Assembly (NCBI GenBank): GCA_949499105.1
Contig: CATEFX010000018.1
Span: 1 to 36,340, forward strand
Direction of reading: 5' to 3'
Source: Formosa sp. Hel1_33_131
GTDB lineage: Bacteria > Bacteroidota > Bacteroidia > Flavobacteriales > Flavobacteriaceae
Length of the DNA: 36,340 bases
Notes under the pieces: model-generated
Told to the model about the DNA's origin: nothing
Databases searched by the model: none
The model's input: only the letters and a program-made list of their open reading frames with translations
Made by a program: the position numbers and the translations under genes
Part shown: piece after piece, positions 40-10,372 of the stretch
Layout: every line of letters begins with the position of its first letter
How positions within the stretch are numbered: the stretch's first letter is position 1

Positions 40-1656
40 ATGAAAAAAATTACATTAATAGCACTTATGCTGTTCACAGCATTGGGTTACGCACAAGTAG
101 GTATCAACACAAATAACCCTGATGCCTCTTCGGCATTAGAGATTGAATCCACTACAGGTGGAATTTTAATACCAAGACTCACAGAGACGCAGCGTGATGC
201 GATATCTGCACCTGCTACAGGTTTAATGATTTATCAAACAAACGGTACATCAGGTTTTTATTTTTATGATGGAAATATTTGGACAAAAGTTGATGGAGTC
301 GCTGGTCCACAAGGAACTAATGGAAATGATGGTGCTGATGGTTCTGATGGTGTTGACGGAGCACAGGGTATTCAAGGAGAAACTGGTGCTACTGGCCCAA
401 CAGGTGCCGCTGGTATAAACGGAACAAATGGTAGTGACGGTCAAGACGGAGCACAGGGTATTGCTGGAACAGATGGAACTAACGGTACTGATGGAACAAA
501 CGGTACTAATGGAGTAGACGGTAATGACGGAGCACAGGGTATTCAAGGAGAAACTGGTGCTACTGGCCCAATAGGTGCCGCTGGTATAAACGGAACAAAT
601 GGTAGTGACGGTCAAGACGGAGCACAGGGTATTGCTGGAACTGACGGAACTGACGGAACTGATGGAGTAGATGGAACTAACGGAGTAGATGGTCTTCCTG
701 GAACTAATGGTACTGATGGAGCTGATGGAGCTGATGGTATTGGAATTGCACAAACGATCACTCGATCAGAAGATATTATAACCCTAAGTGATGGTGGTGG
801 AACTGTAAATGTTAATGATACTGATAGCGACCTAACGAACGAATTGCAAAACGTAGAGCAAGTATTAGTTGTTGGTAATGACGCAAATGGCAATGACATT
901 GTAAACATAGGAAAGATTGGAATAGGAATAGAAACACCACACGACTCAGCGGCATTAGACATTACTTCTACCACAGGGGGGTTATTAATTCCACGTATGA
1001 CAGAAACCCAGCGTGATGCGATTAGTCCAGCTGCCACTGGATTAATGATATACCAAACAGATGGTGCAACAGGCTTTTACTTTTACAATGGTAGTAGTTG
1101 GGAGGGGTATTATTCGAAAGTTGAGATAGATGCACTTATAGATAACTTGCAATCTATAACTGAGGCAAGAGTAGGCGATATTAGGGCGGGCGGAGTTGTG
1201 TTTTGGGTAGACCCTTCTGATAATCGTCACGGTTTGGTATGTGCGTTTTCAGATTATTCAACTTATGTAGAATGGGGTTGTTCTGGTACAGATTTATCAA
1301 GTGTTTCAAATGTCCCTTATAATGGAGGTAATCCTGTGGGCTCTGGTGCTGAAATAGGAGATGGTGTTAGTAATACGAATGCTATACTTCAAGATTGCTC
1401 TACGGCTCCCGCTGCATTAGCGGCAAGGTCTTATGGTCCAGACTGGTTTTTACCAAGTGCAAAGGAGCTAAACCAAATCTATATTAATAAAACAAGTTTA
1501 GAGGGGGTCTCTGGGTTTACTGGATTTAGTGATTACTACTGGAGTTCTACGGAGTTCGGTAACAGTGGCGCGTGGGAGCAGAGTTTCTACGATGGTGGTC
1601 AGGACGGCAGCAGTAAGCTCAACGCAGACGGTGTGCGTGCTGTTCGGGCTTTTTAG
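40..1656 (+). CDS. Secreted collagen-like surface protein with hypervariable lectin-like C-terminus
   Basis: The 538-residue product starts with a signal peptide (about residues 1-18, MKKITLIALMLFTALGYA). A tail-fibre/anchor-like domain (about 20-85, GINTNNPDASSALEI...LIPRLTETQRDAI) follows, then a collagen-like Gly-X-Y stretch (about 88-235) rich in Asn, Asp and Thr. A second copy of the anchor-like domain lies at about 292-362, and a DUF1566/Lcl-like C-terminal domain (about 380-538) ends in VRAVRAF. There is no T9SS sorting domain. The fold of the last domain is inferred as C-type-lectin-like from WSSTE and the conserved VRAVRAF end. The likely role is surface adhesion or ligand binding. 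The last codons look like a DGR variable region. The start is well placed after an A-rich leader containing AAACCAAATTT at the window edge; its promoter is outside the window. Confidence 0.85.
   Translation: MKKITLIALMLFTALGYAQVGINTNNPDASSALEIESTTGGILIPRLTETQRDAISAPATGLMIYQTNGTSGFYFYDGNIWTKVDGVAGPQGTNGNDGADGSDGVDGAQGIQGETGATGPTGAAGINGTNGSDGQDGAQGIAGTDGTNGTDGTNGTNGVDGNDGAQGIQGETGATGPIGAAGINGTNGSDGQDGAQGIAGTDGTDGTDGVDGTNGVDGLPGTNGTDGADGADGIGIAQTITRSEDIITLSDGGGTVNVNDTDSDLTNELQNVEQVLVVGNDANGNDIVNIGKIGIGIETPHDSAALDITSTTGGLLIPRMTETQRDAISPAATGLMIYQTDGATGFYFYNGSSWEGYYSKVEIDALIDNLQSITEARVGDIRAGGVVFWVDPSDNRHGLVCAFSDYSTYVEWGCSGTDLSSVSNVPYNGGNPVGSGAEIGDGVSNTNAILQDCSTAPAALAARSYGPDWFLPSAKELNQIYINKTSLEGVSGFTGFSDYYWSSTEFGNSGAWEQSFYDGGQDGSSKLNADGVRAVRAF
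1552..1656 (+). other. Candidate DGR variable region (VR) at the 3' end of the collagen-like gene
   Basis: The stretch encodes a WSSTE-type C-terminus with the fixed positions AW, Q, G, Q and K, followed by the invariant tail VRAVRAF and the stop. Of the 26 codons at 1555-1632, 19 end in C or T and only one ends in A, which is odd for this AT-rich genome. Those 19 (for example ttc, ggt, agt, ggc, tac, gac, ctc) can each be reached from AAC or AAT by changing adenines only. That is the pattern left by adenine-specific mutagenic retrohoming. No reverse transcriptase, accessory gene or template repeat is present in the window, so the assignment rests on pattern alone. Confidence 0.5.
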
Positions 1657-1868: not shown

Positions 1869-1917
1869 TTGATTGTCATATAAAAGTCATTATATTTGTG
1901 CGATAAACCAATTTAAT
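1869..1917 (+). promoter_or_regulatory. Bacteroidota promoter with AAACCAATTTAAT transcript-start motif
   Basis: A -33 TTG (1869-1871) lies 19 nt before a perfect -7 box TATATTTG (1891-1898). AAACCAATTTAAT starts at 1905, 7 nt after the box, and runs into the ATG at 1916. The same layout recurs before the paralogue at 4301. Confidence 0.8.
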
Positions 1918-3394
1918 GATGAAAAAATTACTTTTAATTCTTATCCTTCCTTTCCTTAGTAATGGACAATCTTTAGAGCGCGGAAGCCTTTCGAACCGTT
2001 CAGAACGCCCTAGAACAGCAACCAATTTTAGCGATCATAATTCAAGGGATCAAGGACGTTTGTCAGCCATAGCCACGCCCGTTGCAGAGTTGCGATTCGA
2101 TCGACTCGTTGATATAAGCCATGATGAATATGAATTAAGCGAAAAAAATGATTACACACTCAATGAGAATGGGAATTTAATATCTCATGTAAACTATACG
2201 TGGGCTTCAACGATTAATTCTTTTATGTCTGATCAAAAAACGGCTACTTTTGAGCCTTATGAAAAAGTTTTATTGGCGTATAATGAGGATGAAACCCTGG
2301 ATATACTGTCGTTTTTCAACTGGGATATATTTGCTAATGATTTTGTGCTAAATGCACAAAAAGAGTATTCATACGATGAAAATGGAAATATGATTGCTTC
2401 TTTTTTAAACACCTGGGATTTAGATAATGAAGTTTTTGTGTCTTTTTCAAAAGAGTTGATAACAAACGACGACAGTGGAAATATAACGATTTCTGAAAAC
2501 TACAACTGGAGTACAGCAAACAACATTTATACACGCTTCTCTAAAGATGAATACACATACGATGTAAATGGGAATCAGATAGTTTATTTATATTCCACCT
2601 GGAATATAGAGAGTGGCGAATTTGAGCCTGTTTCTAAAGAGGCGTACACATCCGATGAAAATGGGAATCTGACGGTCTCTAAACACTACCGCTGGGATGC
2701 AGCAGCTGGCAATTTTACTCTCAACTTTAAAAATGAATACACATACGATGAAAATGGGAATCTGACGCTTTATTTATACTCTTACGTAGATACAGCGAGT
2801 AGCAATTTTGTGGAATCACATAAAGAAGAGTCCACACACGATGAAAATGGGAATCTAACACTTTTAATAATATATAATAGCGATGCAACAAGTGGAGCTT
2901 TGGTAACTACTTCAAAAAAGGAATACACATTTGATACGAATGGGCATATAGAGTCTTATCTCTATTCCAATTATGACACAGGCTTAGCTGATTTTGTACC
3001 CGCTTTTAAAATGGGCTATGAAACCGATGTAGATACCGATTCTAGCCTAAAGAGAATGGGAACAATTTCTAAATATAACACGATCTCTGAGCAATGGGAC
3101 GCGTTTGAGGGCGAAGCACTTCAATCATTTCTTTACTACACTAAATTATCTTCATTATCAACAGCGGGTATTGAGCAGGCGCATTTCTCAGTATATCCAA
3201 ACCCCGCAAAAGAGTCTTTATTTATCAATAGCACAACGATTGAAAGGGCCACCATTTATACTATTCTTGGAAAAAAAGTACTTGAAATTAGGGGTCAAAA
3301 TAAGCTAGACATCTCGCCGCTTTCAAAGGGTGTCTACTTTATTAACGTTTCAGATGGCAAAAAAGCATCCACTAAAAAATTCATAAAAAACTAA
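1916..3394 (+). CDS. T9SS-exported repeat protein (YDENGN repeats), paralogue A
   Basis: The 492-residue product has a signal peptide (MMKKLLLILILPFLSNGQS), an N-terminal segment of about 90 residues, and nine repeats of the type YTYDENGNLT. It ends in a T9SS type A sorting domain of about 70 residues (FSVYPNPAKESLFIN to KKFIKN). Eight of the repeats are spaced exactly 93 bp (31 residues) apart, with starts at 2282, 2375, 2468, 2561, 2654, 2747, 2840 and 2933. The units resemble RHS/YD repeats but are longer than the usual ~20 residues. The product should be exported across the outer membrane by the T9SS and anchored or released; its ligand is unknown. It is paralogous to 4301-5659: the signal peptide and the last ~110 residues are very similar, while the repeats have diverged. 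The first of two tandem ATGs was used; either is possible. Confidence 0.88.
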   Translation: MMKKLLLILILPFLSNGQSLERGSLSNRSERPRTATNFSDHNSRDQGRLSAIATPVAELRFDRLVDISHDEYELSEKNDYTLNENGNLISHVNYTWASTINSFMSDQKTATFEPYEKVLLAYNEDETLDILSFFNWDIFANDFVLNAQKEYSYDENGNMIASFLNTWDLDNEVFVSFSKELITNDDSGNITISENYNWSTANNIYTRFSKDEYTYDVNGNQIVYLYSTWNIESGEFEPVSKEAYTSDENGNLTVSKHYRWDAAAGNFTLNFKNEYTYDENGNLTLYLYSYVDTASSNFVESHKEESTHDENGNLTLLIIYNSDATSGALVTTSKKEYTFDTNGHIESYLYSNYDTGLADFVPAFKMGYETDVDTDSSLKRMGTISKYNTISEQWDAFEGEALQSFLYYTKLSSLSTAGIEQAHFSVYPNPAKESLFINSTTIERATIYTILGKKVLEIRGQNKLDISPLSKGVYFINVSDGKKASTKKFIKN

Positions 3395-3587: not shown

Positions 3588-3614
3588 TATGTTTGTTTTA
3601 TAAACCAATTTAAT
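3588..3614 (+). promoter_or_regulatory. -7 box TATGTTTG with AAACCAATTTAAT motif
   Basis: TATGTTTG (3588-3595) fits TAnnTTTG, and AAACCAATTTAAT begins at 3602, again 7 nt downstream. No well-spaced -33 TTG is visible. From AAACC through the first codons the sequence matches the 1916 and 4301 genes base for base, although the protein that follows is unrelated. Confidence 0.65.
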
Positions 3615-4080
3615 GATGAAAAAATTACTTTTATTTTTCAGTATTTCTGTTTTCTTTATAGGCCGCAGTACTGCACAAGAGTTAACTAAAGAGCGGTCTA
3701 AGGAGTCGTTTATAGAATGGAATTTTGGGATTGCTTTTTTAGAAGATGAAGATTTTGTCTTTCCTGGAACATCCGTTCTCTGGGGTAAAACGTACATAAA
3801 TGAAAATGACCTAATTTTTGAATATGAAGTTGGTTTTGCACTTCCAACTCTTGTAACAGGTAAAATTGGAATCGGCAAAAAATTTAATAACACAAAAGTT
3901 GTGGTCGGAATAAGACCCTTCCCATTTAACATCTATGGGCAATCTAGTTTTGCCAAAGGGGAAAAAGGCTATTGGATCACTTCCCTTGAATATAATCCGA
4001 GGAATCCAACCAATAGAGTTTCAAAAGGAATTTTAAATTTTGGATATCGATGGAATTTAGACAGCAAAGACAAAAAATAA
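3613..4080 (+). CDS. Small secreted protein of unknown function, possibly outer-membrane beta-barrel
   Basis: The 155-residue product has a signal peptide (MMKKLLLFFSISVFFIGRSTA, cleavage near AQE). Beta-strand-like segments rich in aromatic residues and glycine follow (LIFEYEVGFALP, VTGKIGIGKKF, KVVVGIRPFPFNIYG, GILNFGYRWNL), and the end is charged. The alternation suggests a small periplasmic or outer-membrane beta protein; I do not recognise the family. It has no T9SS sorting domain. It lies between the two T9SS paralogues and shares only their leader and first codons, which suggests that the promoter segment was copied or exchanged separately. Confidence 0.7.
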   Translation: MMKKLLLFFSISVFFIGRSTAQELTKERSKESFIEWNFGIAFLEDEDFVFPGTSVLWGKTYINENDLIFEYEVGFALPTLVTGKIGIGKKFNNTKVVVGIRPFPFNIYGQSSFAKGEKGYWITSLEYNPRNPTNRVSKGILNFGYRWNLDSKDKK

Positions 4081-4092
4081 AAGCGGAGCTAT

Positions 4093-4250
4093 TTATTTAA
4101 CGTTGAAGCAGTCAGAATGCTCTAATCCACTAGTGCTCCCTAAGCCACGTCTGTAAATTGAACGTGCTGTTTACATAATTACCCCATCGCTTACTGAAAC
4201 TTTCTAGAGAGGCTTTAGGTGTACTGTTCTAACACAAATACGCATTTTTT
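4093..4250 (-). pseudogene. Second, more decayed integrase 3' relic
   Basis: The minus strand aligns with the relic at 1685-1864. It has the block cagtaagcgatgggg (compare cagaaagcgatggga) with an in-frame stop, then a frame reading SIYRRGLGSTSGLEHSDC and ending NVK-stop at 4093-4095. This parallels LTYLRGLEIAELKEEDMPNIK of the first relic. From the shared CCCATCGCTT to the -33 TTG the two copies are nearly equal in length (72 and 71 nt). The copy carries stops and frameshifts and is dead. Confidence 0.5.
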
Positions 4251-4253
4251 AAA

Positions 4254-4302
4254 TTGATTGTGATATAAAAGTCATTATATTTGTGGGATAAACCAATTTA
4301 AT
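4254..4302 (+). promoter_or_regulatory. Promoter of paralogue B, same layout as at 1869
   Basis: TTG (4254-4256), 19 nt, TATATTTG (4276-4283), then AAACCAATTTAAT starting 7 nt later at 4290 and running into the ATG at 4301. The stretch is nearly identical to 1869-1917. Confidence 0.8.
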
Positions 4303-5659
4303 GATGAAAAAATTACTTTTAATACTTATACTTCCTTTGCTTAGTAATGGACAATCTTTTGAGCACGGAAGTTTTGCAAACCGTTCAGAACGTCACACAA
4401 ATACTGATTTTAGAAAATTCCAAACCAATTTTAGCCATGATAGTTCAAGGGATCAAGCACATTTGTCAGCCATAGCTACACCTGTTGTAGGGTTGCGGTT
4501 GGACCGTTTAGTTGAGGTGAATTTTTCTGGAGATCAATTATCTTACAAAAGAGATTTGACATATGATGTGAATGGCAATGAGGTGCTTAAGACAATTTAC
4601 CAGTGGGACACAGCGAGTGACTCTTTTGTGCCTAGTCAAAAATTGGAAAGCATTTTCAATGAGAACGGAGACCCGACGCTCTATACATATTACAATTGGG
4701 ATACAGATACTAACGGATATGTGAATTATATAAAAATAACTTTCACATACGTTGAGAATGGGAGGACAATTTTAGCTCAAATATGGGATGCAAATGCTAA
4801 CAGTTATGTGAATAATAACAAAGATGTCGTCACAGAGGACGGTTATGTGGAGACTACTATAACTCAAAGCTGGAATACAGACACTGAAGTTTATGTGGAT
4901 TCTTATAAAAAAGTAATAACATACGATGAGAACAATAGGATACTAGACACAGACTTTTACAGTTGGGATTCAGAGACTGTATCTTTTTTGCCTTATAGTA
5001 GAAATGTATACACATACGATGAGAATGAGATGACTTATTTAACTCAAACATTGAATGCAGACACTGGCGATTATATCAATATTTCTCAAGAGAACACAAC
5101 ATACGATCTGAATGGAAATATAACGCTTATTGAAACCACGGCGTTTGATAACGATGGCGTTATAGCTTATTATAACCAAAGTGGATATGCTTACGATGAG
5201 AATGGACATATGGCCTATTCTTTATTTCCGAACTATGATTCAGAATCAAGTAGTTTTATACCCAGTTTTAAAACGGAATATTCAACAGTTCTCGACAGCG
5301 ATACAAAGCTAAATAGAATGGGAATAAGTTACGAATATAACAACACGATCTCTGGACTATGGGATCCGTTTGAGGGCGAAGCAGTTCAATCCTTTTTTTA
5401 CTACACCAAACTGGACCCTCTGTCAGCGGAGGATCTGGTAGATCAGCATTTCTCGGTATATCCAAACCCAGCAAAAGACTTTTTGTTTATCGATAGTACA
5501 TCGATTGAAAGGGCCACCATTTATACTATTCTTGGAAAAGAAGTACTTGATGTTAGGGGTCAAAATAAGCTAGACATCGCGCCGCTTTCAAAAGGTGTTT
5601 ACTTTATTAACGTTTCAGATGGCAAAAAAGCATCCACAAAAAAATTCATAAAAAACTAA
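4301..5659 (+). CDS. T9SS-exported repeat protein (YDENGN repeats), paralogue B
   Basis: The 452-residue product has a signal peptide (MMKKLLLILILPLLSNGQS), an N-terminal segment with LSAIATPV as in paralogue A, and about eight YDENGN-type repeats. Unit starts are near 4565, 4658, 4751, 4835, 4925, 5018, 5105 and 5195, so the spacing is 87-93 bp and less regular than in paralogue A. The protein ends in a T9SS type A sorting domain (FSVYPNPAKDFLFIDS to KKFIKN) almost identical to that of paralogue A. It is expected to be outside the outer membrane. The gene, promoter, upstream integrase tail and terminator all match the 1685-3478 block, so this is a segmental duplication whose ends stayed conserved while the repeats diverged. 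Confidence 0.88.
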   Translation: MMKKLLLILILPLLSNGQSFEHGSFANRSERHTNTDFRKFQTNFSHDSSRDQAHLSAIATPVVGLRLDRLVEVNFSGDQLSYKRDLTYDVNGNEVLKTIYQWDTASDSFVPSQKLESIFNENGDPTLYTYYNWDTDTNGYVNYIKITFTYVENGRTILAQIWDANANSYVNNNKDVVTEDGYVETTITQSWNTDTEVYVDSYKKVITYDENNRILDTDFYSWDSETVSFLPYSRNVYTYDENEMTYLTQTLNADTGDYINISQENTTYDLNGNITLIETTAFDNDGVIAYYNQSGYAYDENGHMAYSLFPNYDSESSSFIPSFKTEYSTVLDSDTKLNRMGISYEYNNTISGLWDPFEGEAVQSFFYYTKLDPLSAEDLVDQHFSVYPNPAKDFLFIDSTSIERATIYTILGKEVLDVRGQNKLDIAPLSKGVYFINVSDGKKASTKKFIKN

Positions 5660-5712
5660 CGTCACAAAAATATACTGAATCCTTTTTTAGGAGTCCGTTT
5701 TTTTTATAAACT

Positions 5713-5740
5713 AAAAACCCATCTTAACTGAAGGGTTTTT
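5713..5740. terminator. Bidirectional terminator between convergent genes
   Basis: AAAAACCC pairs with GGGTTTTT around a short loop, with T-runs on both strands. It lies between the plus-strand T9SS gene ending at 5659 and the minus-strand HxlR gene ending at 5757. Confidence 0.7.
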
Positions 5741-5756
5741 TTGTATTATAAACGTC

Positions 5757-6065
5757 TTAAGGTTGGCGTACCCATTCTTCAATGGTCTTAAAAACACCGC
5801 AAAGGCGTTCCGATTTTTTGGTTAATGAGTATTCTACTTTTGGAGGGATTTCTGGGTATTGCTTTCTATTTATAAGCGAATCTTTTTCTAAACTCTTTAA
5901 TTGGTCTGTCAATACTTTTCTTGAAATAGTTGGGATCGCGGCGGCGAGTTGACCAAATCGAATTACCCCTCTTGTTCTAATAATATTGATAATTATAAGC
6001 TTCCATTTTCCTCCTAACATTTCTGTAAAAGAAGTGACTGGGCATATATCGTTCGTTACTTTCAT
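5757..6065 (-). CDS. HxlR-family winged-helix transcriptional regulator
   Basis: The 102-residue product matches HxlR family size and layout. An N-terminal Cys in the CPVT motif (Cys8) is followed by GGKWKLIIINIIRTRGVIRF, the helix-turn-helix core with SRKVLTDQLKSLEKDSLI, and the wing with PPKVEYSLT. In family members such as YodB and HypR this Cys senses quinones or other electrophiles and oxidants, so a thiol-sensing role is plausible here but inferred. The gene is divergent from yceI and the CDGSH gene; the 113-bp gap holds inverted repeats that could be its operator, allowing self-control and control of the neighbours. Confidence 0.92.
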   Translation of the reverse strand: MKVTNDICPVTSFTEMLGGKWKLIIINIIRTRGVIRFGQLAAAIPTISRKVLTDQLKSLEKDSLINRKQYPEIPPKVEYSLTKKSERLCGVFKTIEEWVRQP

Positions 6066-6077
6066 AAGACTGTTTTA

Positions 6078-6134
6078 GTTACCATAAAGTACCTAGAATA
6101 TTATAGTTACTTAAAGGTAACAAGTTACTTTATG
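6078..6134. promoter_or_regulatory. Candidate HxlR operator (nested inverted repeats)
   Basis: The palindrome-like GTTACTTAAAGGTAAC (6106-6121) is flanked by CATAAAGTA (6083-6091) and its inverse TACTTTATG (6126-6134); a further GTTACC half-site starts at 6078. The arrangement suits a dimeric winged-helix regulator binding between two divergent promoters. No clear TAnnTTTG box is visible here. Confidence 0.5.
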
Positions 6135-6178
6135 TTTCCAAATGTATTACTATTGCAGGAACAAAAAAAATAATAGCT

Positions 6179-6742
6179 ATGAAAACAAAAAATTTAGTAT
6201 CCATTTTATTAATTGCAGTCACAACAACTGCTTTTTCACAGATCAAATTTGATTTAAACAAGAGCAACATCAAATGGACTGGGGAAAAAATCACAAAGCA
6301 AGCCCACTCAGGTTCTTTAGCGTTTAATTCGGCAACAGTCTCATTAGACGACCCAAACAATCCATCTGGAGTCTTTGCGGTGGATATGACCTCATTAACG
6401 AATGATGATTTAACGGGTGAATGGAAACAAAAGCTTGAAGGACACTTAAAATCTGACGACTTTTTTTCAGTGGAAAAACACCCTGAAGCAACCTTGGTGA
6501 TCAAAAAAGTGATTTCTCAAAACAACAACTCTTATCAGCTCACAGGAGACTTAACAATTAAAAGCATTACCCATCCTGTCGATTTTAGTTTGAGTGTTTA
6601 CGAAGATAGAATTGAAAGTAAATTAACTTTTGATCGGTCAAAATTTGACATTCAATTTGCTTCAGGAAGCTTTTTTGAAAACTTGGGGGATACTCTAATC
6701 TTAGATGAAATTACGCTTGACATAACATTACTAAAAATATAA
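6179..6742 (+). CDS. YceI-family periplasmic lipid-binding-like protein
   Basis: The 187-residue product has a signal peptide (MKTKNLVSILLIAVTTTAFS, mature from QIKF) and a full YceI domain. Visible family landmarks are the SNIKWTGEK start, HSGSLAF, DMTSLTNDD, the LEGHLKSDDFF block and the TGDLTIKSITHPV block. YceI proteins form a lipocalin-like barrel that binds isoprenoid chains such as polyprenyl quinones; the ligand here is unknown. It probably lies in one operon with the CDGSH gene 5 nt downstream, divergent from HxlR. Confidence 0.93.
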   Translation: MKTKNLVSILLIAVTTTAFSQIKFDLNKSNIKWTGEKITKQAHSGSLAFNSATVSLDDPNNPSGVFAVDMTSLTNDDLTGEWKQKLEGHLKSDDFFSVEKHPEATLVIKKVISQNNNSYQLTGDLTIKSITHPVDFSLSVYEDRIESKLTFDRSKFDIQFASGSFFENLGDTLILDEITLDITLLKI

Positions 6743-9445: not shown

Positions 9446-9952
9446 ATGACGATAGAAGTTTCAAACAATAAAAAGGATTTTAAGATTGTTGACCATGACA
9501 AAGTGGTCCTCAAAGGGAGTCGCACTAAATGGTATTCTTCAGGAATTAACTTTTTTCATAATAGCAAAACCTACGAGATCAAGAAAAAAGGGATTTGGTC
9601 CGCCTCTTTTACTATTTTGGAGAGTGGTCACCCCATTGGAGAGATTAATTGGAGCTTGAAAAAAGGAATAAAATTAATCCTTACTAACAAGCAGAAAGTT
9701 ACCAGTTCGTATTGGCTCAAAACAGAAAAAGTAGGGAAATGGTATGCCCCCGACCAGCAGTATATTCTTTGCGAAAATGGAGAAACCCCCATTTTAACCA
9801 TTCATTACTCCTTAAAAAAATGGAAAGAATCTTTGGAGGCTGAATTCAGTACTAATGACCACCCCAATTACCTGCTTTTGGCCTGTGCTCTGTTTTTAAT
9901 GAGGCAACAACAAAGTGCTCAAAGCAGCGCAGCTGCAGGGGGATTTGGGTAG
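9446..9952 (+). CDS. Conserved-looking cytosolic protein of unknown function
   Basis: The 168-residue product has no signal peptide. The first ~130 residues are strand-rich with many Lys and Trp (VVLKGSRTKWYSSGINF, SKTYEIKKKGIWSASFTIL, WSLKKGIKLILTNKQKV). Then comes a short hydrophobic helix (NYLLLACALFLMRQQQ) and a low-complexity Ser/Ala/Gly tail. The repeated strand pattern recalls the LURP-one/tubby-like fold, but this is only a resemblance. The stop codon overlaps the first unit of the heptanucleotide repeat that follows, so repeat growth may have altered the C-terminus. Confidence 0.7.
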   Translation: MTIEVSNNKKDFKIVDHDKVVLKGSRTKWYSSGINFFHNSKTYEIKKKGIWSASFTILESGHPIGEINWSLKKGIKLILTNKQKVTSSYWLKTEKVGKWYAPDQQYILCENGETPILTIHYSLKKWKESLEAEFSTNDHPNYLLLACALFLMRQQQSAQSSAAAGGFG

Positions 9953-10111
9953 TGGGAAGTGGGAAGTGAAAAGTGAAAAGTGAAAAGTGAAAAGTGGGAA
10001 GTGAAAAGTGAAAAGTGAAAAGTGGGAAGTGAAAAGTGAAAAGTGGGAAGTGAAAAGTGGGAAGTGAAAAGTGGGAAGTGAAAAGTGGAAAGTGGAAAGT
10101 GGAAAGTGGGA
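9951..10111 (+). repeat. Heptanucleotide tandem repeat, 23 units of AGTG(RRA)
   Basis: Exactly 23 head-to-tail 7-mers of three types: AGTGGGA, AGTGAAA and AGTGGAA. The order is GGG twice, then runs of AAA units of 4, 3, 2, 1, 1 and 1 separated by single GGG units, then three GGA units and a last GGG. The first unit overlaps the stop codon of the preceding gene. Confidence 0.95.
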
Positions 10112-10372
10112 AGAGGAAAGAAGAAAGAAGAAAGGGGAAAGAGAAAAGAAGAAATTGAAAAGTGGATAGTGAAATTAAGCTCTAAACCTTAGAGAATCAG
10201 ACGCCAATTTAGTCGTGACGCCATTTATATCAACACAGCTCATGCCGTTCTTCAGCACTAGAAAAGGTGCGAAACTTCCGAGCTCCAAACTATTAAAATG
10301 ACACCTTTTTCGTTGTATTTTTAACATAATGATTAAAATTTTATGAGTTTTGTAACACTTTAATGACTAATC
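10112..10372. other. Intergenic stretch: purine tract and possible 50-codon ORF
   Basis: Together with the repeat, the gene-free stretch is 9953-10372. Positions 10112-10154 are pure purine on the plus strand (aga/gaa-rich). A minus-strand ORF of 50 codons (10327 to 10175) starts MLKIQRKRCHFNSLELG and ends SDSLRFRA. It is free of low complexity but has no promoter or homologue I can name. The region 10328-10372 contains the promoter area of the next gene (TAATCTTG at 10369-10376, one mismatch to TAnnTTTG). Confidence 0.4.

Follow-up and report, generated by a model that had tools for sequence, protein, structure and literature searches.

A collagen-like Lcl_C gene of Formosa sp. Hel1_33_131 that ends in a probable variable repeat of a diversity-generating retroelement and adjoins a recombinase-gene repeat

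The DNA analysed here, referred to as the window, is a stretch of 36,340 nucleotides from Formosa sp. Hel1_33_131. It is the entire contig C18 of an assembly of 2,105,223 bp in 66 contigs, which is 86.6%-complete (it lacks about 13% of the genome), and it begins 39 nt 5' of an ORF on the forward strand (positions 40 to 1656) that encodes a protein of 538 aa. By eye, its first residues, MKKITLIALMLFTALGYAQ, resemble a signal peptide. Aa 86-233 are collagen repeats (Collagen model, 82.9 bits), and the C-terminus is matched by the Lcl_C (DUF1566) model at 28.3 bits, under the cut-off of 34.9 for that model. The end of the ORF reads ...YYWSSTE-FGNSGAWEQSFYDGGQDGSSKLNADG-VRAVRAF.

The last 172 residues were modelled with AlphaFold2 using a 50-sequence alignment (pLDDT 91, pTM 0.88). 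The C-terminal domain of Legionella Lcl (8q4e) was the top PDB match both by sequence (phmmer, 4.8e-7) and by fold (Foldseek 1.8e-9, TM 0.57/0.74, rmsd 6.4, 25% identity), and the second Foldseek match was a Bacteroides fimbrial protein (9.2e-5). The initial annotation, made from the sequence alone, had called this terminus lectin-like; the term is borne out in part, the Lcl domain being the best Foldseek match and C-type lectins coming after it as weak matches, with E of 0.05 or worse. Lcl, like the window protein, combines collagen repeats with a DUF1566 C-terminal domain, and is described in a passage of PMC11162425 as a trimeric 'lollipop' adhesin. Read from Lcl, the protein encoded in the window may likewise be a trimeric, stalked adhesin. 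Strains of L. pneumophila are reported to share more than 97% identity in the C-terminal domain of Lcl (PMC11162425), a high conservation that is the opposite of the variable tail found here.

Past the collagen-like gene, the forward strand carries an AT-rich linker (1657 to 1682), an imperfect hairpin followed by a T-run (1689 to 1713) and a copy of a 64-bp repeat, here called REP (1722 to 1785), that bounds genes in relatives and is a proposed attachment site. REP corresponds to the 3' end part of a tyrosine-recombinase gene, a remnant of which lies on the reverse strand at 1715 to 1834, convergent to the collagen-like gene; it comprises the last 40 codons (tblastn, 100% over 40 aa). The next gene, at 1916 to 3394 on the forward strand, encodes 492 aa with a secretion-tail domain and DUF3836. 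It forms a related pair with the gene at 4301-5659, with near-identical stretches upstream (1824-2007/4209-4392, 88%) and at the ends (3181-3452/5446-5717, 90%). Elsewhere in the window, positions 9909-10188 hold a tandem repeat of about a dozen copies with a step of mostly 14-nt.

Gap-free alignment to template repeats of diversity-generating retroelements (DGRs) delimits a variable repeat (VR) of 110 bp at 1540 to 1649 on the forward strand, within the domain of Lcl_C fold and stopping 7 bp short of the end of the gene. Every difference from the template of locus L047, a Polaribacter MAG, falls in a variable core of 26 codons (1555 to 1632). The core is followed by an adenine-free, IMH-like 3' flank (1633 to 1653) that reads GTGCGTGCTGTTCGGGCTTTT and is identical across three VRs of the source genome. 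A hypervariable tail had been placed at 1552..1656 in the initial annotation; the tail is real, but the match to the template spans 1540-1649. The count of codon endings that accompanied it proved exact: between WSSTE and VRAVRAF, 19 of the 26 codons end in C or T, six in G and one (GCA) in A. The claim that each of the 19 could derive from AAC or AAT by adenine changes holds for 16 of them against real templates, but not for codons 2, 11 and 14: TTC (codon 11) and GGT (codon 14) already stand in the template and stay constant, and GGT at codon 2 goes back to GAT.

The comparison drew on three adenine-rich template copies, all from other genera than the window: L047, L054 (Aequorivita MAG) and L024 (Urechidicola MAG). 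Against the L047 template, the window VR is changed at 24 of 45 adenines but at just one of the 65 bases that are not adenine (Fisher 6.8e-11). The corresponding figures are 23/44 adenines and 1/66 other bases for L054, and 21/42 and 4/68 for L024. As the repeat keeps 64 of the 65 non-adenine bases of the L047 template with 24 of the 45 adenines changed, it is read as a DGR VR. The wider comparison with the L047 template took in 40 of the 53 VR and template copies, the 13 that are not exactly 110 bp (including one VR of the source genome, on contig C59) being excluded and L029 and L038 being skipped as repeats of L018 and L019. P<0.05 (unadjusted) was reached by 35 of the 37 non-template copies, the exceptions being L023 (0.16) and L043 (0.06).

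L047 holds a full DGR cassette, namely an Lcl_C gene with VR, an Avd gene (bAvd, 60 bits; PHROG 'Avd protein of DGR'), the template and a reverse transcriptase (RT) of 419 aa. The other two template loci are less regular. At L024 5685-6161 the VR gene, Avd and template are intact and the RT is cut to 158 aa. At L054 1971-2345 a template-like repeat is fused in frame to a target ORF and continues into sequence of template type; the locus has no RT, and the arrangement looks as if template and VR had recombined.

An adenine-rich comparand biases the adenine count, and VRs were therefore compared with VRs as a control. Six of the 36 other VRs (L063, L024, L065, L047, L051 and L036) differ from the window VR at none of the 65 non-adenine sites and at 18-30 of the 45 adenine sites, and the 120 nt upstream of these six align with the window at just 63-71% (over 61 columns only in L036). 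The means over all 36 VRs are 25.6 of 45 adenine sites and 6.5 of 65 other sites, which suggests that many VRs have drifted or belong to other templates. A tail made variable by ordinary selection for diversity, or by paralogous Lcl_C genes recombining with one another, would call for no retroelement; the Lcl_C genes are numerous and the recombinase repeats could move them. Neither process explains why differences are concentrated at the adenines of the template while the remaining 65 bases, even at synonymous positions, are left untouched across dissimilar genes, or why the L047 locus combines a matching Avd, template and RT. The template comparison and the VR-VR control refute such processes as the main cause, and we regard this explanation as highly improbable.

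The protein homologues point the same way. For the Lcl_C region, 304 homologues were found, and 77 of the 120 among the matches listed have the 26-aa core and were used. In two of them, P0040 and P0011, the 45 residues that precede WSSTE show a single difference from the window protein, whereas the core shows 15/26 and 18/26. Variation restricted to adenine-templated positions had been suggested as a check on reads or related strains; the differences in these two proteins are indeed confined mostly to the tail, though they are homologues on other contigs and not alleles of one strain. Seven positions of the core are near-fixed, in 69-76 of the 77 homologues: A at position 6, W at 7, Q at 9, F at 11, G at 14, Q at 16 and K at 21. 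Template codons at five of these seven positions are GCG, TGG, TTC, GGT or AAG, and the fixed template codons that bear adenine (CAG, CAG and AAG) are probably held constant by selection. The tail of another homologue, P0004, NDNNNAWKQNFNNGNQNNNNKNNTNR, is nearly the translation of an unmutated template. The footprint of DGR adenine mutagenesis described in the initial annotation is thus borne out by actual template repeats, by the VR-VR control and by the crowding of differences in the tails of homologues, and the gene is almost certainly a DGR target.

The region 3' of the VR was compared in the same set of copies. The AT-rich linker is common to many VRs of other genera (blastn): at least 22 of its 26 bases are found after 16 of 50 VRs, with 26/26 in the window and 11-12/26 after the three templates. 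Many VRs then have a hairpin CCGC(N3-4)GCGG. Among the 49 VRs (templates excluded) with 60 nt or more of sequence on their 3' side, 26 are followed by a strict GC hairpin, against 2.0 expected from single-base shuffles. The window VR is without one, and the imperfect hairpin occupies its place. This hairpin folds at -14.7 kcal/mol on the forward strand and -8.4 on the other. It looks like a terminator, which it fits better than the DGR cruciform considered as the other reading. The target site of the BPP-1 DGR, with IMH plus hairpin or cruciform as given in a passage of PMC3240598, is similar in that an adenine-free 3' flank is followed by a short inverted repeat; unlike BPP-1, the window has an AT linker between the two and a hairpin that is imperfect and terminator-like.

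A blastn search of the source genome with positions 1480-1660 returned two more VRs, at C10:52318-52436 and C59:1913-2040, both in Lcl_C genes; the search also gave two weaker matches, of 21-25 bp, to sequence other than VRs. All three VRs share the left flank TGGAGTTCTACGGAG and the right flank GTGCGTGCTGTTCGGGCTTTTTA. The two additional VRs fit the L047 template less well, with 10 of 65 non-adenine bases changed in the C10 VR and a length 6 bp greater in the C59 VR, which indicates that the VRs of this genome are not all fresh or of one template. Both are also without the AT linker (10/26 bases), and together with the 10 non-adenine changes in C10 this suggests that they are older or derive from another template.

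No RT was found in the 86.6%-complete source assembly with either the RVT_1 model or the L047 RT as query, and no Avd was found in it. A search of the assembly for the right flank, allowing up to 3 mismatches, returned just the three VRs and no template; since templates end in the same right flank, a template of that type is absent from the assembly. The initial annotation had warned that the retroelement might be remote or lost, and this caution holds: RT, Avd and template were not found in the assembly, but it has two further VRs, and a close relative has a DGR-type RT. It had also named what would speak against a DGR altogether, namely a genome lacking both RT and template, together with a lack of site-restricted variation among close strains. 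The former agrees with what the 87%-complete assembly shows, but site-restricted variation is present, among homologues from other contigs rather than alleles of one strain.

Among 18 congeneric genomes, an RT was found in one (G006), VR flanks in five and Avd pieces in three. G006 is a close relative of the source genome, its contig C29 matching window positions 3588-6471 at 98.2% (2.9 kb). Its DGR-type RT is 85% identical to the L047 RT and comprises 323 aa, cut by the contig start, and the template side lies beyond the contig end. The RT ends about 75 bp from tRNA-Leu(CAA), past which lies a gene that we take to be prs (ribose-phosphate pyrophosphokinase). The same tRNA and following gene are assembled in the source genome, but what runs up to the tRNA there, in place of the RT, is a gene for a serine recombinase (84 bits with Resolvase, 43 bits with Recombinase). 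An RT at the place used in G006 is therefore ruled out, and the RT is either elsewhere in the missing part or absent. The serine-recombinase gene runs into the 3' end of the tRNA with three ORFs beside it (G000:C26:118917-124437; L106 3917-9437), and the place looks like an insertion hotspot. In G013 the contig ends at that tRNA and is uninformative on an RT there.

These results have to be weighed against the possibility that the VR is a fossil, diversified by a DGR in the past and now fixed in its tail after loss of the retroelement from the lineage. The absence of RT, Avd and template from the assembly and the serine-recombinase gene at the tRNA-Leu(CAA) site that holds the RT in G006 both agree with such a loss. 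The RT in 1/18 congeners against VR flanks in 5/18 counts against the main reading, as do the imperfect hairpin in place of the GC hairpin, the poorer fit of the C10 and C59 VRs to the L047 template and a pseudogene in G006 as its VR at the place equivalent to the window. VRs persist in G009 (a single contig, 99% complete) and in G012, where they precede an Avd gene that breaks off after 62 aa in both, and neither genome has an RT; these loci (L082 3480-5209 in G009 and L083 3759-4126 in G012) are read as DGR remains. Their flanks, however, have 2 mismatches in 19 bp, unlike the intact flank and AT linker of the window, and the window VR has 1 non-adenine change against the L047 template and none against six other VRs. 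About 13% of the source genome is missing as well. We consider the fossil a substantial possibility, somewhat short of an even one; the undecayed VR leans toward a writer that acts in trans or is unassembled rather than lost. Judged from sequence comparison, this 110-bp end of the collagen-like Lcl_C gene is very probably a DGR VR, likely written by a DGR RT acting from elsewhere.

The REP copy beside the target gene starts 73 bp past the VR. REP matches were found in 13 of the 18 congeneric genomes, source included, with up to 16 matches per genome, and in 26 of 397 genomes and 18 of 237 genera of the family; the family survey scored two candidates per genome, and its copies per genome are lower bounds. 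Altogether, 72 matches were collected in 23 sequences (one place in L085 matched on both strands). Taking matches of at least 25 bits and intervals of up to 2.5 kb, 36 REP-REP intervals were obtained, of which 25 contain exactly one ORF of at least 60 aa, seven none and four two, and 27 of the 33 ORFs share the orientation of REP (P 3.2e-4). A REP follows the VR at 60-76 nt in 6 of the 53 VR and template copies scanned (the window, L155, two in L019, L033 and L049), and in L022 it lies 248 nt away from the VR in opposite orientation. L019 has tandem VR genes, each bounded by REPs. G001 has two tandem VR genes in the order REP-gene-REP-gene-REP with a recombinase behind, and a third REP-bounded VR gene; the VR of the first tandem gene is frameshifted, as are both recombinase genes. 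In G006, the VR at the place equivalent to the window is a pseudogene followed by REP, and a cupin-like gene occupies the slot of window gene 1916-3394. Such dissimilar genes in the same slot of the source genome and G006 are suggestive of cassette insertion and excision.

An open recombinase gene in L148 encodes 358 aa (Phage_integrase, 46 bits). An IntI integron was considered and rejected, as the L148 recombinase, the sole one tested, scored 23.4 bits with TIGR02249 against a cut-off of 265; its best model in this test was NF040815 (48.3 of 220). The REP consensus folds weakly (-3.0 and -4.0 kcal/mol on the two strands), with no strong attC-like fold. Inside REP, TCTAAACCT-CTTAAAT-AGGTTA resembles, by eye, inverted arms round a 7-bp centre, and a loose pattern of this kind fits 33 of 53 copies; REP may be the crossover site. 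The arrays resemble integron arrays in having mostly one gene between direct repeats, a prevailing orientation and an adjoining tyrosine recombinase, and differ from them in a recombinase that is not IntI, in a repeat taken from the 3' end of its gene and in the direction of the genes, which is toward that end.

The REP arrays could also be something other than a cassette system, namely elements with their own recombinase that were inserted serially at the 3' end of the same gene and decayed to debris beside VR genes. In favour of this, each REP copy is a fragment from the 3' end of the recombinase gene, only a remnant is left in the window, the recombinase genes of G001 are frameshifted and REP folds weakly on both strands. 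Debris would not be expected to give REPs of the same size bounding single genes in one orientation (25/36 intervals; 27/33 ORFs), up to 16 matches in a genome or tandem VR genes each bounded by REPs as in L019, nor does it sit well with the open 358-aa recombinase of L148 and with dissimilar genes beside REP in two close genomes. We give this explanation appreciable weight without thinking it probable. As the REPs bound mostly single genes, tandem VR genes among them, DGR targets are likely to be mobile as cassettes, in an array that is integron-like but non-IntI; the mobility of these cassettes is inferred.

In the mechanism that we propose, template RNA would be copied with errors at adenines, priming would take place near the 3' flank at 1633-1653, and the cDNA would replace about 1540-1632, altering the outer face of the stalked adhesin. 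The target genes would spread as single-gene cassettes by means of the tyrosine recombinase, the 3' end of whose gene would double as attachment site. A target spread in this way could part from its retroelement and then be rewritten in trans, or become fixed once the retroelement disappears. We tentatively suggest, as an idea with somewhat less than half our confidence, that two diversifiers act on one set of surface genes in Flavobacteriaceae: a non-IntI tyrosine recombinase that collects and swaps single-gene cassettes, with its own gene end as attachment site, and DGRs, for which some of the cassettes would be adhesin genes with a standard retroelement landing site whose tails could be rewritten in trans by any DGR of the right type in the cell. 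Targets would thus spread as retroelement-free receivers, independently of the writer.

The kind of retroelement and the DUF1566 target are already known, DUF1566 being named in a passage of PMC6642488 as the most common Pfam domain among DGR targets. With DGRs that have DUF1566/Lcl_C targets, the present case shares a C-terminal VR, adenine-only change and, in its kin, the set of Avd, RT and template. It differs in that neither RT nor Avd nor template was found in the assembly that contains the window target, and in the recombinase repeat beside the gene, which in relatives forms the boundaries of cassettes. Among the matches listed in a search of open-licence PMC, no paper was found that treats DGR targets as members of recombinase cassette arrays, an orphan target next to an integron-like, non-IntI array, or arrays in which the end of the recombinase gene serves as the repeat, a slight indication of novelty. 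If targets do move as cassettes, hypermutation and cassette exchange would act on the same adhesins, and, with targets moving apart from the writer, DGR diversity would be a shared, trans-acting resource. Close genomes with and without RT, plus a common VR type, make this a testable case.

According to a passage of PMC8144416, RT-first surveys on short contigs miss remote targets. Orphan targets such as the window gene escape surveys of this kind. The shared landing site makes such targets findable by DNA pattern alone. Among 60 genomes the flank pattern occurs in two, the source genome and its congener G001, with three copies each. One scan of GTDB genomes gave 45 stretches, and one viral contig also has the pattern. 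By record title, 26 of the 45 belong to Flavobacteriaceae or Flavobacteriales, 15 to other Bacteroidota and four to others, these last being Methylobacter, Nitrosomonas, Chloroherpetonaceae and Clostridiales MAGs whose assignment rests on MAG binning as deposited. A distant blastn search of phage records gave no near-copies of the Lcl_C region, and pattern searches of viral contigs matched one stretch for RT and six for recombinase, none of them confirmed. The viral contig, IMGVR_UViG_3300023108_002893 (L021), has no RVT_1 match in its record; at 914-1240 it encodes an Lcl_C protein of 108 aa, whose gene has these VR flanks and adjoins a UvrD-like helicase gene.
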